From Pedobacter petrophilus (GTDB taxonomy: Bacteria; Bacteroidota; Bacteroidia; Sphingobacteriales; Sphingobacteriaceae), in NCBI RefSeq assembly GCF_009674725.1, contig NZ_WKKH01000012.1, positions 1 through 64,000 on the forward strand: a stretch of DNA of 64,000 bases. The letters run 5' to 3'. The translations under genes were made by a program, and so were the position numbers. Of the stretch, positions 37 through 14,802 are shown piece after piece; the first letter of the stretch is position 1; the number at the start of each line of letters is the position of its first letter. Under the pieces are notes generated by a model. It saw only the letters and a program-made list of their open reading frames with translations, had not been told where the DNA came from and ran no database searches.

Positions 37-1209
37 TTAAAGTGGTGAAGAGGGGTCAATTTGAAGCGGTTTATCCAAATATTGCATCAGCAGATAATAA
101 AAAAGCAGTACCATAAGATACGCCCATTTAAAGTCACCTAAACTAATATCCAGGTGCCATGCACGTTGGACTAGCAATCTCAAAGTTTCTGGAAAGCTTA
201 AAATGGCCTGTTTGTAAGTGGACCATATTAGTATCATATAGAGCAGCATCACTGCATAGTTCACTACGCCATAAGCGATGAGGAATGTATGCTTTGAGAA
301 AAGATTTTTCATCCCCGCAGACTTATTATCTTGGTTCGTTTTGAATGCTAGTTTTAATGCTCCCCTTGCTTTGGCAAGCAAGTTTGGAGTTGATGTGAGG
401 TCTGACAGTACCCAATACCCATCGAGCCTGATGAACGGATTTAGTTCCAAAATGGCTTTAGAAGCTATGATAACATGAGCAAGTAAGAATGTTGGATTAC
501 CTGTTACGCTATATATCAGAAGCAATGCAAAAGCATATAAATATTCGCAAAAGATTCCTCCAAGATTGGCCATAATCCGTTTATTTCGGGAAGCTTGCCA
601 AATATTACTAATATCTGCGAATGCTACCGGTATTACGGCGTAAATTCCAAAGCCTATCGCTCCATGGCGGATGTTGTATCGCCTGCAAGCTGCAATATGC
701 CCCAACTCATGTACCAACATGGTCATGCAGATCAATAAACTTAACATACTGAAATTGGGAGTTATTACTTTCAAATGCTCGACAAAAAAGTATTTGATAG
801 TGAACACACTAAACATCAACATAAAAGATAGAAGTGTATAGAAAAGTATCGGTTTAAAAAAATAAGTAAAAGGAGCAGAAAGTTTTCCAGCGACATTAGC
901 CGGTATAATGTTGATTCTTGCCTTCAGGTAACTTTGCCCAGAAGTTTTGTTTGTAATCGGATCTTCATTTAGTAAGATGCCATATCCACCCAAATTTTGG
1001 TTGACCAAAGTTGTGAATTCATCTAGGTTTAGGGATACATTGAGATTCTTATTAAAACTTGTGCAAGCTTCTTCAATGGATCTTTCATTGCGTAGAATAT
1101 CCAACAGTTCGATGGTATTGCCATCCACCAGGATGTTCCGGCCACCCGCGGTATTGACCACAAAACGATGATCGTCATAATTACTGATATTGATCGCTGA
1201 TATTAACAT
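37..1209 (-). CDS. PqqD-like domain fused to M50 family membrane zinc peptidase
   Basis: The 390-residue protein has two parts. Residues 1-85 resemble a PqqD/RiPP-recognition-like domain. From about residue 115 on it is a multi-pass membrane protein with the M50 zinc site: HELGH at 167-171 and the second metal motif NPFIRLDGYW at 257-266. Such PqqD-M50 proteins are known in peptide-modification clusters, where they are thought to process or export a modified peptide; that role here is inference. The start ATG overlaps the stop of the upstream gene by one base (TAATG), which implies translational coupling to the isoprenoid-synthase-like gene. No precursor peptide is visible upstream, and the left window edge cuts off whatever follows. 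Family assignment is good; the biological role is unknown. Confidence 0.8.
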   Translation of the reverse strand: MLISAINISNYDDHRFVVNTAGGRNILVDGNTIELLDILRNERSIEEACTSFNKNLNVSLNLDEFTTLVNQNLGGYGILLNEDPITNKTSGQSYLKARINIIPANVAGKLSAPFTYFFKPILFYTLLSFMLMFSVFTIKYFFVEHLKVITPNFSMLSLLICMTMLVHELGHIAACRRYNIRHGAIGFGIYAVIPVAFADISNIWQASRNKRIMANLGGIFCEYLYAFALLLIYSVTGNPTFLLAHVIIASKAILELNPFIRLDGYWVLSDLTSTPNLLAKARGALKLAFKTNQDNKSAGMKNLFSKHTFLIAYGVVNYAVMLLYMILIWSTYKQAILSFPETLRLLVQRAWHLDISLGDFKWAYLMVLLFYYLLMQYLDKPLQIDPSSPL

Positions 1210-3026
1210 TAGTTTACCGCGGCCAAAAGGTTCAAAACTGTTGCAGTAGTAAATATGCTATTATGATCATCCACTATTACCCCTGTGCCAAAGGACCCAT
1301 GCTTCCATTCATTCACTTCTTCTGGATCAACCACATCTGGATCTGGAATCCTCAATATATAGTCGGATGCCCACCTTCCATCCTCGAATTGTTCACTTAA
1401 AAGCCAGTTGATGCCTGCTGATATTTCAACATTATAATTTTCTTTCAATTCCATAAGTGACCTTAATGCTAATGCAGTATAAAAAGCACTAGGTTTGTCT
1501 GTGGCAGGATTAGCCCAGTAATCCTGTCCTGTTTCTTTTTTAGACATTATCCAGGCGCAACCTAGTTTTTTCTGATTGAAGCCTTCGCTGCTAAGCGCCC
1601 GTACTGCATATGAGGTTGCATAGATGTCACTCGACCACCAGTATGATTTCCAACTGCCATCAGCCTGTTGAGTGTTCATTAAATGATTTGATGTTCTGGT
1701 ATATGCTTCATTTAAATGGTTCATGGATTTTAAAGCATAACCTGCAGCAGCAGAAACACAGTTTTTTTCTTTAATCCAACCATTAACGTTATGGTGTTCG
1801 GAAAGGTGAAGAAGTTTTCTCAGTCCGTTTGCATCTGTATATGTTCTCCAACTTCCTTCATGTTCAAAACTCAACCAATTTGAATGGTCGTAAGGGATAC
1901 CCACTAAAGCTGAATACAGAGATAAAAAATTGGCACTGTCACCATCCATAAATATATTCTCATTGAACGAGGCATGTTGATGATTAGTAAAATATTCAGA
2001 TAATGCCGTAGTGATGTTTTTACCTAAACCCTGTTCTGCCAGCATGCAGCCTACGTAGGCACTAACCCAAATTGTTCCAAATCCGGCAGTAGTTAGGAAA
2101 TCGGATAAAAGACCATTCGACTCTTGCTGGTTTTTAAGATAAGCTAATGATAAGTTGGTGGCCTTAGGAACAGTATTCTCTAATCCTACAATTTTTTCAC
2201 TATTGTCAGCTTTGGCCTGTGTTTTGATGAGAAGGTAATTAATTTCCAGCAGCCGGTCTTTACACCGATGCTGTTCTTTTAGAAGATATTGGGAAAGCGA
2301 ATCAAGATTTAAGGTAGTTGCAATTTCTATAGCATTCTGATAATGATCAATAGCATTCTTTATGCTGATCTGAGCCAATTCCGTCAGAAATAAATATTTA
2401 TAAGCTAATGGTGAATGTAAAGAAATACTAATTTTTCTTTCACTTAAAATACGTTCCAGTTCACTAATAATATAGGTTCTTTGTCCCCTATCATAATCAG
2501 CTTTAAAATCGTCAAGATCGTCAAGGTACTGAAACGCGATATGGATTTCATTTACCAGTGTCTTCAGAAGAGCGTCATATTTATTATCATCCCCTAAAGA
2601 AGATAATGCATCTACTATGCTTAAGGCCATAGCAGACTTTCCTTTAGCTAAAGACTGAAAAGTATGTTGATCTATGAAGATACTTTTTTCAGATATTTTT
2701 TTTTCAAGTGCATATGATTCCAAATAGGAATGCTTGTGCAAAGCAAAAGACGTCCAGAATTTATCTTGTCTGTTAAATAGATAAGCCAAACCTTTTATAT
2801 TTTCTTCAAAAGAGGAAAGCCGGACAAAGAAATTCCTAAAATCTAAATCTCCTCCATCGGCTATCGAATCCAAAGAAAGCAGGAACTTAAAGTACCCATA
2901 AGATGTGTCCTTAAGTGCTATAAGCTGTTCTTTACTTACCTTAGGGTATAACGGAACCAGATACTCAGCTATATTAATGTAGAACTCATGGTTTTTCTTA
3001 ATTTCTCTGGTCGTTTGTTCAATCAT
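1209..3026 (-). CDS. Fused class I / class II isoprenoid (terpene) synthase-like protein
   Basis: This is a 605-residue protein with two all-helical halves. The N-terminal half carries FQYLDDLDDF at 165-174. It matches the second aspartate-rich motif (FQxxDDxxD) of prenyl-chain-elongating class I enzymes; a clear first motif is not seen, though D53/D57/D60 are candidates. The C-terminal half has QW-type repeats (QQADGSW at 453-459, QFEDGRW at 546-552) and DGDSAN at 361-366. DGDSAN lies where class II cyclases have DxDDTA and keeps the middle acid (D363). This suggests diphosphate chemistry in one half and protonation-initiated cyclisation in the other. It has no signal peptide, so it is probably cytosolic. 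It is coupled by TAATG to a PqqD-M50 peptidase, hinting at a specialised-metabolite cluster that continues off the left edge. The product is unknown. Confidence 0.7.
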   Translation of the reverse strand: MIEQTTREIKKNHEFYINIAEYLVPLYPKVSKEQLIALKDTSYGYFKFLLSLDSIADGGDLDFRNFFVRLSSFEENIKGLAYLFNRQDKFWTSFALHKHSYLESYALEKKISEKSIFIDQHTFQSLAKGKSAMALSIVDALSSLGDDNKYDALLKTLVNEIHIAFQYLDDLDDFKADYDRGQRTYIISELERILSERKISISLHSPLAYKYLFLTELAQISIKNAIDHYQNAIEIATTLNLDSLSQYLLKEQHRCKDRLLEINYLLIKTQAKADNSEKIVGLENTVPKATNLSLAYLKNQQESNGLLSDFLTTAGFGTIWVSAYVGCMLAEQGLGKNITTALSEYFTNHQHASFNENIFMDGDSANFLSLYSALVGIPYDHSNWLSFEHEGSWRTYTDANGLRKLLHLSEHHNVNGWIKEKNCVSAAAGYALKSMNHLNEAYTRTSNHLMNTQQADGSWKSYWWSSDIYATSYAVRALSSEGFNQKKLGCAWIMSKKETGQDYWANPATDKPSAFYTALALRSLMELKENYNVEISAGINWLLSEQFEDGRWASDYILRIPDPDVVDPEEVNEWKHGSFGTGVIVDDHNSIFTTATVLNLLAAVN

Positions 3027-3271
3027 AAAATAAGGGATGAGAGCGTTAATCAGGATTGCAATTTAGATGGTTAGAGGGATTATGACAACAACCTGAGGTT
3101 ATAACTAAAAAAAGTTAAATCCATTGCAAGGTCAAAAAGCTGCTAATGTTAATTTGAGATTATCCACGCAATTTTCGGCTTGGGTATCATACTTCAAATT
3201 TCAGAAATGAAAAGATTTTGATATTTTTATTTTTAAAACCTGGTCAACGTATTCCTGGCTTATAAGAACCG

Positions 3272-3577
3272 TCAGCTGATCTGTTTTCTTAACCAGTTGT
3301 CTTTTTTTGTGCAGGAGAATAAAAAAAGTTGCCCAACCTTTGGATCGACATTGAATGATCCGGATTCCTGATCGGTGTAGAAAGTTACTTTTTTGGCTGA
3401 GGTGGTATATACATCCAAATTTTCTTTAGGCATGACCGTCCAGGCGTTCTTTCTGACCGGGTAATCATCATCTTTGATATCGACACTAGTAAAAGATGCC
3501 TTAACAATTTTCAGCTGCTTTTGTGCGAATGTAGTGCTTACTGAGAAAAGGAGTAAGGATAGAATAGCGAATTTCAT
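3272..3577 (-). CDS. Small secreted hypothetical protein
   Basis: A 101-residue protein with a clean signal peptide (MKFAILSLLLFSVSTTFAQ), so it is exported. The mature part is about 80 residues, rich in Lys and Asp, with one Cys near the end (FSCTKKDNW). I chose the ATG at 3577; an in-frame TTG six bases earlier is less likely. There is no strong ribosome-binding site, as usual in Bacteroidota. It stands alone between the isoprenoid-synthase-like gene and a frameshifted adhesin-like gene, all on the minus strand. I do not recognise a family and assign no function. Confidence 0.6.
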   Translation of the reverse strand: MKFAILSLLLFSVSTTFAQKQLKIVKASFTSVDIKDDDYPVRKNAWTVMPKENLDVYTTSAKKVTFYTDQESGSFNVDPKVGQLFLFSCTKKDNWLRKQIS

Positions 3578-3780
3578 TTTCAATTGGTTTAGGGTTCAGG
3601 CTTAAAACAAAAACGCCCGAAAACTTCCGGAGGTTGCATTGAATCAATAATATAACTGCCTGTCTAAAAACAAGATGACCGAGCAGATTTAAAAACAATC
3701 CAAAGCCATTTTTAAAACATGCGACCAGTACGGTTTCGAATTTTACAGTAATATTCTTTAAATCCCCCTTTAAACAAAAA

Positions 3781-3802
3781 AAGCTACCCCCATGGGCAGC
3801 TT
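3781..3802 (-). terminator. Rho-independent terminator for the frameshifted gene upstream of it
   Basis: An imperfect hairpin (arms AAGCTACCC and GGGCAGCTT, loop CCAT) is followed on the minus strand by a run of T residues. It lies 22 bases beyond the stop of the disrupted DUF2807-like gene. Confidence 0.65.
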
Positions 3803-3823
3803 CAACTTATCTGATTTTATTTT

Positions 3824-4436
3824 CTACTTTGCTAAAACCATTGCATTTTGTTCCACTTCCATAATGCTTTCAGAAGCATAAGATTCCGATTTTAGGCTGG
3901 CAAAATCAGCTAATTTTACGTTTTTCATGTTGCTTGCGATCATTGTACTTTGATTAGCAGTACCATTTAATTTTAATACCGCATCATCCTTAACGATGTT
4001 ATATAAACTGCCTGCTGTAGTTTTAATCCTCGCTGTAGCACTCTGGCTCAAGAATAACTGCAGGTATTTTACATCGAAATTATTGCTGGTGACCACAACT
4101 GATTGACCGTAAGCTTCAATCCTTTCTAAATCCTTCACGGTAATATTAAGTATGACCTGACTGGTTTCTTCTGAATTGATAAACAAGGTTTTTCCATCAG
4201 TTGATACAGAGGTTTTCGCAGCTTCATAGTTGCTCTCGCTTTCTATATTTTGTTTGTCACCTTGTGTCAAGATGATTTTCACGTTCCCCGCTCACCCAGA
4301 TCCTGTTGAATTTTGATAATGAAGAAGTTTTTGTTTCTGCTTTAACTGGCTCAGCGGCAAAAGTTGCCATTGCTGATGAAGTAAATAATACTGCTGTTAA
4401 TGCTGCTGCGAATAATGTTCTTGTTAAGGTTTTCAT
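3824..4436 (-). pseudogene. DUF2807/GIN-domain-like secreted protein, frameshifted
   Basis: Read from the ATG at 4436, the gene starts with a signal peptide (MKTLTRTLFAAALTAVLF, with cleavage near AMA) and a short linker ending NRIWVSG. It then runs out of frame at a GGGG run (CCCC at 4286-4289 on the plus strand). Removing one G joins it to a 150-residue downstream frame starting NVKIILTQGDKQ. Together they give one protein of about 204 residues with the repetitive beta-strand character of the GIN/DUF2807 head-domain family (surface or periplasmic, function unknown). The downstream frame alone would need a GTG start inside the domain and lacks a signal peptide. Either the gene is recently inactivated or the G run is a sequencing error. 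Confidence 0.75.
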
Positions 4437-11633: not shown

Positions 11634-12228
11634 TAAACAAGAAAAACTTATGTAGGAATGGTCGGAAGAGAAAGCAAATAACATTTCCAAATTTCAGTCA
11701 AATAAGAAAACATAGAAATTATGGGCAGGAACACGAGAAGCGACAAATAGGACGGGAGTGTCACCTGAGCTGTGTCAGATTCTAAATTAATGCTTCTCTG
11801 TCATGGTTATATAGGTTATTTTTGGAACATCCCTTGTCTTTATCGGTTCACTTATAAACACCATCTCTAATTAATAATCTACGTTTACAACTTGTAAACC
11901 ATGTTTATTGCCAAAACCTCTAATTAAACTCTAATAGTTAGCCTAGCTATTAGTACCAACATAAATTCGGCTTAACAGGACTTTTGTATCGTGAAGGATT
12001 TAAAGATATTGTTCAGTGTATCCATGCAAAGCACTGTCCATCCAGATTGCTCTCAAGGTCAAGGATTATTTCGATCTAATTTAAATTCTTGTTCGCAGCA
12101 AGCATTATCGTTATCAGATTTATACGCATACAAAAACCAAAAAAACTTTTGTATTGCTATCGGATCATCTTCGGCTCTTATCGGATCATATCGGCTCACA
12201 AGTGCTGATTTTTTTATTAAATTTGTAT
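11634..12228. other. Intergenic region with palindromes and the upstream Fic repeats
   Basis: About 595 bases without a gene I can support. They hold the palindrome GTTTACAA-C-TTGTAAAC (11883-11899) and a stem-loop with 11-bp arms CTAATAGTTAG / CTAGCTATTAG (11931-11953). The phased repeats at 12158-12199 lie at the right end. An 83-codon open frame at 11991-12242 looks like chance. Confidence 0.5.
12158..12199. repeat. Phased ~10-bp repeats upstream of fic
   Basis: Four copies of ATCGGNTCNN-like units follow each other at 10-12 bp spacing (ATCGGATCAT, TTCGGCTCTT, ATCGGATCAT, ATCGGCTCAC). They form two ~21-bp direct repeats, ending 29 bases before the Fic start codon. One-turn spacing suggests a protein bound along one face of the helix. 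Confidence 0.75.
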
Positions 12229-13272
12229 ATGAGCAAAGTTAATGTGCATACGCAAATCCTGGGCCTGAACTGGAAACTAATCGGTTTGATAAGCGATATC
12301 GACAGATTTGATGCGGCTTGGCAGGCGATCGAACGTAAAGAGGGGCAAACCTTAAAAGAATTGAAGTACATTGCTACAGTTAGTAGTGTTGGAGCCTCTA
12401 CACGTATCGAAGGATCAAAACTTAGTGACCAGGAAGTTGATGTTCTCTTAAGAAACATGGATATATCTAAACTCGAAGATCGAGATCAGCAGGAAGTTGT
12501 TGGGTATTTCGAGGTATTGGATGCGATCGACGAAAGCCATCAGTATATGAATATTTCAGAGACCGAACTGAAAAACCTGCACAACCAGCTTTTGAGGTAT
12601 AGCGAAAAAGACAAATGGCATAAAGGAAATTATAAGCAACATACGAATTCAGTAGAGATGACATTGCCTGATGGGAGCAAACAGATCATTTTTCAGACAA
12701 CCCCTCCGGGTTTTGCGACAGAGGATGCGATGCGAGCATTGATTGATTGGTATGAAAGCGATAAGGACACCCACTCATTGGTGAAAAGTGCATTATTCTG
12801 TTATGAGTTTCTATCTATACACCCATTTCAGGACGGGAATGGAAGACTGAGCCGTCTGCTAGCTACCTTGCTTTTGCGCAAAAATGGATATCAATGGATA
12901 AGATATGTAAGTTTTGAGCACGAGATCGAAAGTAAAAAAACAGAGTATTATGGTGTACTTAGGTCTTGCCAAGCGTTAAGGCCAAATGAAGATATATCTG
13001 CATGGGTATCCTTTTTCTTGGAAAGTCTTAAAAATATCCAAGAAGCATTGATGCGTAAACTTGAAAGTCGAAACGTCATCCAATCACTATCACCAAAAGA
13101 CAAGATACTGATTGCTATCATTGAAAGCAATCCTGGGATCAAAACCGGCGATCTAGCCGTAAAAACCGGTTCATCTGGTTCAACTATAAAAAGGATGGTT
13201 GAGAAATTGATTAAACAAAAACTTATAGAACGTCATGGGGTTGGACCTGGATCTTATTATACGCTATTGTGA
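12229..13272 (+). CDS. Fic family protein (AMPylase-like) with C-terminal winged helix
   Basis: The start ATG at 12229 is preferred over an upstream one at 12154, because the family begins near this point and the upstream stretch lies across the repeats. The 347-residue protein has an N-terminal Fic_N-like region with the inhibitory motif STRIEG (57-62). The full Fic catalytic motif HPFQDGNGRLSR is at 198-209. A winged-helix region lies at about 286-347 (KTGDLAVKTGSSGSTIKR). Fic enzymes transfer AMP or similar groups to protein hydroxyls, and an intact (S/T)xxxE(G/N) motif keeps them auto-inhibited. The wHTH suggests DNA binding, possibly to the repeats that flank the gene on both sides. No separate antitoxin gene is adjacent. 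Confidence 0.9.
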   Translation: MSKVNVHTQILGLNWKLIGLISDIDRFDAAWQAIERKEGQTLKELKYIATVSSVGASTRIEGSKLSDQEVDVLLRNMDISKLEDRDQQEVVGYFEVLDAIDESHQYMNISETELKNLHNQLLRYSEKDKWHKGNYKQHTNSVEMTLPDGSKQIIFQTTPPGFATEDAMRALIDWYESDKDTHSLVKSALFCYEFLSIHPFQDGNGRLSRLLATLLLRKNGYQWIRYVSFEHEIESKKTEYYGVLRSCQALRPNEDISAWVSFFLESLKNIQEALMRKLESRNVIQSLSPKDKILIAIIESNPGIKTGDLAVKTGSSGSTIKRMVEKLIKQKLIERHGVGPGSYYTLL

Positions 13273-13316
13273 TCGGATCAGAATCGGCTCGTATCGGTCC
13301 ATATCGGATCATAATC
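13271..13316. repeat. Phased ~10-bp repeats downstream of fic
   Basis: Four more ATCGGNTCNN-like units in the same orientation as the upstream set: ATCGGATCAG, ATCGGCTCGT, ATCGGTCCAT, ATCGGATCAT. They begin at the fic stop codon. Confidence 0.75.
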
Positions 13317-13350
13317 TAACCACTTGCCCTTCAAAAAGCGAAATCTCAAT

Positions 13351-13391
13351 CTTGATCGAACTGACCGACATCAATGTCGGTCAGTTGTGAT
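13351..13391. repeat. 41-bp direct repeat, copy 2 (13-bp-arm palindrome)
   Basis: Same palindrome as at 7443-7483 (arms AACTGACCGACAT / ATGTCGGTCAGTT, centre CA instead of CT), 39 of 41 positions identical. It lies between the convergent fic and integrase genes. Confidence 0.85.
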
Positions 13392-13408
13392 ACCATATTT
13401 AAAATTTT

Positions 13409-13475
13409 CTTAATCTGATTGTTACTTCAATCAAATACATCAGAAATGATTGAAATAACAAACAATTAGATTAAG
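13409..13475. repeat. Large imperfect inverted repeat downstream of the integrase
   Basis: The outer arms CTTAATCT / AGATTAAG and inner arms TTCAATCA / TGATTGAA are joined by partly matching sequence around ATTGTT / AACAAT. The loop is about 13 bases. It sits between convergent fic and integrase and may end transcription from one or both; a bulged stem makes this uncertain. Confidence 0.5.
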
Positions 13476-13521
13476 TTGACAAGACAAATTACAACTGATT
13501 TCCGTTTACATTGCCAGCAAT

Positions 13522-14802
13522 CTACCTAAAGAGCTTCATAACTTTCACATCACCAGTATCCTCTTCATCCTTATTCCGTTCTAACAGTTTCTCCTGTAAT
13601 GCAGACATCTCAGTACTAACCTTCGTATCGATCACCTTCGCATAATGTTGGGTTGTTTTCAGGCTATTGTGCCCAAGCATCTGGGATACAGTCTCAATCG
13701 GAACACCATTTGAAAGCGTAATAGTGGTTGCAAAAGTGTGCCTGGCAAGATGATACGTAAGCACCTTAGTGATGGTACAAAGATCTGCGATCTCTTTGAG
13801 GTACCCATTCATTCGCTGGTTGGTGAGCATTGGCAACGCCACTTTTCTCCATCGGCATATCCTGTGGTTTTTATACCTGTCAAGAATTACTTTTGCCTCA
13901 TCCAACAAGGGGATGTGACAGGGTGTTTCCGTTTTCTGTCTTTTAATGAAAATCCATAAATTACCGTCATCACCTTTTGAAATCTGATCCAATCGAAGCT
14001 GCTTCACGTCTATATAAGAAAGGCCGGTATAGCAACTGAAAATAAAGATGTCGCGAACGATGTTTAATCTTTCAAGCGGAAACTCCCTGTTTTTAATTCG
14101 ATTCAACTCTTCCATATTCAGAAAAGTCCTTGCCTTAGCTTTAGCAGTATTTCGATAATTTAAAAATGGATTCCCGACTATCCACCCGGCGCCAAGGCAA
14201 TACAGCATGATTTTTTTCAGGTGAACAATATATTTCCTGGCAGACATTGCATTATTTCCTCGATCTATTCTAAGAAATAGCTCATAATCGGTGATAAATT
14301 TAAAATCAACCTTTTTGATGTTGATGTCCTGAACCTCATATTTGAGCTGAAGAAATTGTTTAACATGCCTGATGGAACTCTGATAGGATTGAAATGTGCT
14401 ATAGCTATACCCTTTACCAATTAGTTTTTCTAGATTATCATTGTGTTTTTGATAAATTTTAAGGAGCGTGTAGTTTGATGAATTCTTTCCGGTAAGATGA
14501 TCCCTCAGCACAAGTGTGGTTACCTCTTCCTCTTTTTCAATAAGAGCTGTGTGAAACCGACAGACTTTCGAGGCGAGCGTATCAAGGTAATCGTTAAGCT
14601 CTTTGATTTCGTCTTTTTGACCGATTCCCCGACCTTTAATCGTGGACCAGTAGGTTGGAATAATTTCCCTGCCGACTGAATACTCCGAATGTTTTCCGTT
14701 CACGGTAATCCGCAAATAAATGGGCATCACCTCGCCCTTCAATAATTTTTTTGATCTTTTCAAATAGAAAAAAGATGGAAATTGTAACTCATAATGATAC
14801 AT
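13522..14802 (-). CDS. Tyrosine recombinase / integrase (IntDOT-like)
   Basis: A 426-residue site-specific integrase: arm-binding N-terminal region (1-100), SAM-like core-binding domain (about 110-205) and C-terminal catalytic domain. Catalytic residues visible are K288 region, H351-x-x-R354 (HLARHTFATT), H378 (MLGHNS) and the nucleophile Y387 (TTQHYAKV). The first catalytic Arg is replaced by Ser262 in CYTGLSYIDV, a substitution known from Bacteroides conjugative-transposon integrases such as IntDOT. The gene starts about 300 bases from the 3' end of a tRNA-Arg gene, as in tRNA-integrated islands. No excisionase, relaxase or transfer gene is visible here, so the element is either mostly beyond the left edge or degraded. 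Confidence 0.9.
   Translation of the reverse strand: MYHYELQFPSFFYLKRSKKLLKGEVMPIYLRITVNGKHSEYSVGREIIPTYWSTIKGRGIGQKDEIKELNDYLDTLASKVCRFHTALIEKEEEVTTLVLRDHLTGKNSSNYTLLKIYQKHNDNLEKLIGKGYSYSTFQSYQSSIRHVKQFLQLKYEVQDINIKKVDFKFITDYELFLRIDRGNNAMSARKYIVHLKKIMLYCLGAGWIVGNPFLNYRNTAKAKARTFLNMEELNRIKNREFPLERLNIVRDIFIFSCYTGLSYIDVKQLRLDQISKGDDGNLWIFIKRQKTETPCHIPLLDEAKVILDRYKNHRICRWRKVALPMLTNQRMNGYLKEIADLCTITKVLTYHLARHTFATTITLSNGVPIETVSQMLGHNSLKTTQHYAKVIDTKVSTEMSALQEKLLERNKDEEDTGDVKVMKLFR

Follow-up and report, generated by a model that had tools for sequence, protein, structure and literature searches.

The window, which is the whole stretch of 64,000 nucleotides from Pedobacter petrophilus that was analysed, opens with a minus-strand pair of genes at the end of a contig. 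The larger is a single open frame (positions 1209-3026, minus strand), with abundant stops on the plus strand, and was identified from the frame itself, 27 aligned relatives and an AlphaFold2 model as a gene for a fused prenyltransferase–terpene cyclase of 605 aa, here called P0001. It shares a stop/start overlap, TAATG, with a gene for an M50-family intramembrane metalloprotease (37-1209, minus strand), which carries the HELGH motif, scores over the cut-off of Pfam PF02163 and aligns with the proteases of related loci. The models nearest to this protease were those of the daptide and YydH-LiaK (epipeptide) M50 RiPP proteases (NF041824 and NF058609), although its scores lay far below their curated cut-offs, reaching 75.7 bits against 300 for the daptide model NF041824. 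Positions 1-77 were assigned, from a repeated 20-mer and a common terminal sequence, to the terminus of a multi-copy element at the contig end, probably an insertion sequence; the genome contains 18 copies of the 20-mer at 42-61, and the eight of them that were read have their terminal sequence at contig ends in common. The M50 gene is cut after about 377 codons, with its last 13 or so residues foreign and derived from the end of the element. About 10 kb from the cluster, positions 12154-14802 encode a Fic-type protein (HPFQDGNGR) and a tyrosine recombinase, and the region around them is possibly mobile.

An initial annotation had proposed that P0001 combines class I and class II isoprenoid-synthase-like halves in one polypeptide, and this was borne out by the open frame, the AlphaFold2 model and Foldseek. 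The full-length model, built from 28 sequences, had a mean pLDDT of 91 and a pTM of 0.82, and the architecture stands, with a class I and a class II terpene-synthase fold predicted for the two halves. Across the 28 aligned sequences the residues Y16, D53, D57, L80, W91, Q166, D169, D170, D173, D177, D361, D363, T395, W417, V424, A426, W463 and Y469 were invariant, and because these include D53, D57, D169, D170, D173, D177, D361 and D363, the motifs cannot be ascribed to chance. The motifs FQYLDDLDDF and DGDSAN, which had been placed in the N-half and the C-half, were located at residues 165-174 and 361-366, with D169/D170/D173 and D363 correctly numbered, and the QW-type repeats expected in the C-half were found at about 453-464 and 546-554. 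The annotation had included neither the first Asp-rich motif (D53-x3-D57) nor the peptide-modification context.

The N-half (residues 1-275; 2202-3026, minus strand) was assigned to the class I trans-isoprenyl-synthase-like prenyltransferases on the basis of its own model, Foldseek and a family profile. Modelled alone, it adopted an all-alpha class I fold (pLDDT 93), and Foldseek matched it to polyprenyl synthases (best 5e-4), to GGPP synthases and, with a TMt of up to 0.68, to Ord1, a Trp farnesyltransferase; the E-values were marginal, but the fold was consistent across the matches. With the family profile, PDB polyprenyl synthetases were matched at 1.2e-5 in the region of the second Asp-rich motif; the N-half alone matched no Pfam family. 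The first Asp-rich motif, D53-SIA-D57 (2856-2870, minus strand), has both aspartates invariant and is DxxxD rather than DDxxD in all 28 sequences. In the second, Q166-YL-DDLDDFKAD177 (2496-2531, minus strand), the five residues Q166, D169, D170, D173 and D177 were kept in 28/28 sequences, with Q166 lying just upstream of the Asp-rich motif proper. The GGKRxR motif, which binds IPP in prenyl synthases, was absent from P0001 and from 27/27 relatives (28 sequences inspected). P0001 shows none of the three marks of a canonical trans-prenyl diphosphate synthase, which are DDxxD, GGKRxR and a PF00348 match over cut-off; the source genome has two ordinary polyprenyl synthases, one of them showing GGKRxR. 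Judged from the models, fold likeness alone does not tell whether this half of the protein is a Trp prenyltransferase or a synthase that elongates chains.

The C-half (residues 284-605; 1212-2177, minus strand) was identified by its sequence match to MstE and by Foldseek as an MstE-like monodomain class II terpene cyclase. The match to MstE reached 7.6e-25 over residues 284-602, 8paj, 8pak and 6ij1 were matched too, and Pfam SQHop_cyclase_C was matched above cut-off. In the Foldseek search with the full-length model, MstE was the top match (8.8e-15, TMt 0.81), and 6ij1 had a TMt of 0.85. The class II acid motif, D361-G-D363-S364 (1935-1946, minus strand), in which D361 and D363 are invariant, lies close to the DADTT of MstE. 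DGDSAN had been suggested to occupy the class II acid position, and the phmmer alignment placed it there, at or within 2-3 columns of DADTT, with a registration that differs between MstE wild type and mutants and is 2-3 columns off in some. The single alpha-barrel domain and the DxD(T/S) acid motif are those of MstE-like monodomain cyclases; identification as a squalene-hopene cyclase was rejected on the motif (DGDS, not DxDD), the single domain and scores of 30-44 bits against cut-offs of 323-851. MstE itself (PDB 6sbb-6sbg) shares the fold and the DxD(T/S) motif with the C-half but is a stand-alone enzyme, whereas P0001 is fused, and its substrate is a prenylated dihydroxybenzoate, not a peptide; crystal structures with farnesyl- and geranylgeranyl-dihydroxybenzoate bound were among the Foldseek matches.

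A scan of the genome collection with the single sequence returned no homologue of P0001. The alignment-based scan gave 39 loci, the closest being from Emticicia at 40% identity, and the loci of the family were mainly in Bacteroidota but also in Balneolota and Ignavibacteriota. Full-length relatives turned up when whole genomes of the same family and the same phylum were searched, and among 145 genomes of the same genus there were two full-length relatives (36-37% identity), one fragment and some weaker matches to the cyclase half. A tree of 28 sequences split into two groups of 14 with support of 100/100, distinguished by a DxD(S/T) or a DxDD acid motif; P0001 belongs to the DxD(S/T) clade, and members from Chryseobacterium, Epilithonimonas and Capnocytophaga belong to the DxDD clade. 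A Tenacibaculum cluster (L082:7800-11763) carries two fused enzymes in tandem, one with DxDS and one with DxDD, and in Chryseobacterium mucoviscidosis (L102:7926-10855) the fused gene is interrupted by a transposase-like frame. The proteins encoded at two loci (L012:8847-10811 and L060:9270-10388) consist of the cyclase alone, lacking the class I half, and have phytanoyl-CoA dioxygenase-like, glycine-rich and very large RHS-like proteins as neighbours.

At most of the related Bacteroidota loci the fused gene adjoins an M50 protease gene and short peptide genes. The order in the closest relatives was fused enzyme, M50 protease, peptide gene or genes, a CarboxypepD_reg-like protein and often a MauE/DoxX-like protein, with radical SAM/SPASM enzymes, a P450 or an IDI in some clusters. 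An IDI gene lay near the cluster in four loci, as called by similarity to a protein of locus L008 that was itself recognised as an IDI by eye. The peptides at most related loci have a common leader, F-x-V-E-E-L-E-x-R-x-E, followed by Trp. Forty peptides were collected by their leader, with Trp not used as a criterion and the L064 peptide left out, and all 40 have a Trp downstream of the leader, at most seven residues from it in 38, while the leaders themselves contain no Trp among 1053 residues; these peptides are not independent, since related species and tandem copies contributed some of them. In Chryseobacterium defluvii six peptide genes lie in tandem, and their Trp stands 2-3 residues past the EM of the leader or follows immediately after a single residue. 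The sole Trp of another precursor (L061:11243-11410) is near the C-terminus (ICWLA) in a ComX-like position, in a cluster with radical SAM and P450 genes. At L064, a peptide with a related leader and then a Cys-rich core without Trp (627-830) and an M50 protease gene adjoin a gene (3271-4221) for a 316-aa relative of the N-half only, the cyclase half being apparently missing, and this enzyme may target a residue other than Trp.

Several known systems share parts of this arrangement. Trans-IDS-like prenyltransferases, namely ComQ, PalQ and the P domain of ChrPC, prenylate Trp, and in these enzymes the second Asp-rich motif is described as repurposed for Trp, with a conserved Gln just upstream (PMC13290415). 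ComQ has been reported to lack a true second Asp motif (PMC10853753). The tryptophan prenyltransferases ComQ, PalQ and Ord1 resemble P0001 in the class I fold, the Trp acceptor and the Gln before the second Asp motif, but unlike P0001 they have no cyclase domain. NctPC, like P0001, joins a prenyltransferase to an MstE-like cyclase, and geranylgeranylates Trp before cyclisation, but in NctPC the prenyltransferase half forms an ABBA barrel (PMC13290415), whereas that of P0001 has the all-alpha class I fold. ChrPC is a RiPP maturase in which a prenyltransferase is fused to a cyclase (Hubrich et al. 2024, Chem, doi 10.1016/j.chempr.2024.07.026), and we compared it by its description in a 2026 review (PMC13290415). 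As described there, an internal Trp is modified by its P domain, which uses C10-C20 donors, and cyclisation of the prenyl group is the work of its C domain; like P0001, it has a trans-IDS-like domain fused N-terminally to a cyclase and a Gln before the second Asp motif. The internal Trp acted on by ChrPC, according to the same description, is that of a ribosomal peptide, and Trp-containing precursors were present at nearly all loci of P0001 relatives, though none was found in the genome of the window. The Chryseobacterium relatives fall in the DxDD clade, in contrast to P0001 in its separate DxD(S/T) clade (100/100).

Based on the missing GGKRxR, the DxxxD motif, the invariant Gln, and the M50 protease and Trp-peptide context in relatives, we consider it very probable that P0001 belongs to the RiPP maturases of the fused prenyltransferase–terpene cyclase type, and that it would prenylate a peptide Trp and then cyclise the attached chain. 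Our observations cover the architecture, the folds, the invariant residues, the conserved Trp and, in relatives, the peptide and protease neighbourhood, whereas we infer the chemistry, the donor length, the attachment site and the role of the protease. The N-terminal domain would use the first Asp motif (D53, D57, Mg2+) to bind a preformed prenyl diphosphate, and Q166 together with the second Asp-rich motif would bind the Trp indole of the precursor peptide, so that a C10-C20 chain, probably geranylgeranyl or farnesyl, could be transferred to the peptide Trp. In the MstE-like C-terminal domain, D363 of DGDS would protonate the far end of the chain, which would fold into rings, and the neighbouring M50 protease would probably remove the leader and/or help with release. 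We suggest, more tentatively and with some doubt, that the DxD(S/T) clade of P0001 may be a functionally distinct branch, making on the peptide Trp ring systems unlike those of the DxDD clade by MstE-like chemistry.

The initial annotation had suggested a different outcome, in which the N-half elongates IPP and DMAPP and the C-half cyclises the product to a free terpenoid. The two folds do occur in this order, the second Asp-rich motif is like that of prenyl synthases, and IDI genes stand near some clusters, but the elongation step fits poorly with an N-half in which the IPP-binding motif is absent from all family members, DxxxD replaces DDxxD and P0001 has no match to PF00348. The locus context is moreover that of a peptide and a protease, as in RiPP pathways, and the genome is already provided with its two ordinary polyprenyl synthases, so that while the architecture of the proposal was upheld, a free-standing bifunctional terpene synthase is highly improbable. 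It is scarcely credible that the N-half does no more than bind or remove diphosphate, the C-half cyclising free FPP or GGPP and the peptide being modified by another enzyme such as a radical SAM protein. Drimenol synthases do provide a precedent as phosphatase-like–cyclase fusions, in their case with a HAD half (PMC9128629), and some clusters contain radical SAM genes; yet in a non-exhaustive look at the closest loci (L071-L080) none was noted beside the cluster although the Trp is conserved, and ChrPC, as far as the review describes it (PMC13290415), acts on Trp itself.

A separate question, compatible with the maturase reading of the enzyme type, is whether P0001 in this strain is a decaying remnant without present function, and we regard the chances as evenly divided. 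A profile of 10 peptides found no precursor in the assembly, and the same profile found precursors in 5/5 other genomes searched, all of them genomes whose loci carry one. The leader pattern had no match among 519 small frames in the rest of the window, and a candidate from a search with one relative's peptide (E 1.24), lying inside a 206-aa frame, was judged a chance match. CarboxypepD_reg, MauE and IDI partners sought in the genome gave only unrelated or housekeeping-like matches. Because the M50 gene is truncated by the insertion-element end and no precursor was found in the assembly, the cluster of the window is probably broken and the pathway incomplete in its own genome, and activity in this strain is therefore doubtful. 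The same-genus locus L008 is the mirror case, keeping the precursor and partners with no more than a fragment left of its fused gene, and the cluster is patchy across the 145 genomes of the genus, where it seems to decay readily. Against decay, the 605-aa frame is intact with all catalytic residues kept, so any decay would be recent, and an assembly gap possibly hides the partners, though an assembly would not normally miss more than 3 kb of unique sequence.

The kind of enzyme was already published in 2024, and P0001 is a member of a sister clade that is probably orphaned. Peptides whose tryptophan carries a cyclised terpene have become known as a class only very recently, and the loci found here provide dozens of precursor–enzyme pairs in two well-separated cyclase clades, with a leader–Trp signature simple enough to be used for finding more. 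The copy in the window is of limited value, its partners being apparently lost. The precursor–enzyme pairs are suited to the question of how a prenylated peptide is handed from the class I to the class II active site within one enzyme. At another locus (L011:7742-9817), a 691-aa class II cyclase-like protein is encoded directly downstream of a lasso-peptide-like gene set (PqqD-like, transglutaminase-core, asparagine synthase and HPr-kinase-like proteins, all assigned by eye), where a terpene-related lasso modification is possible.
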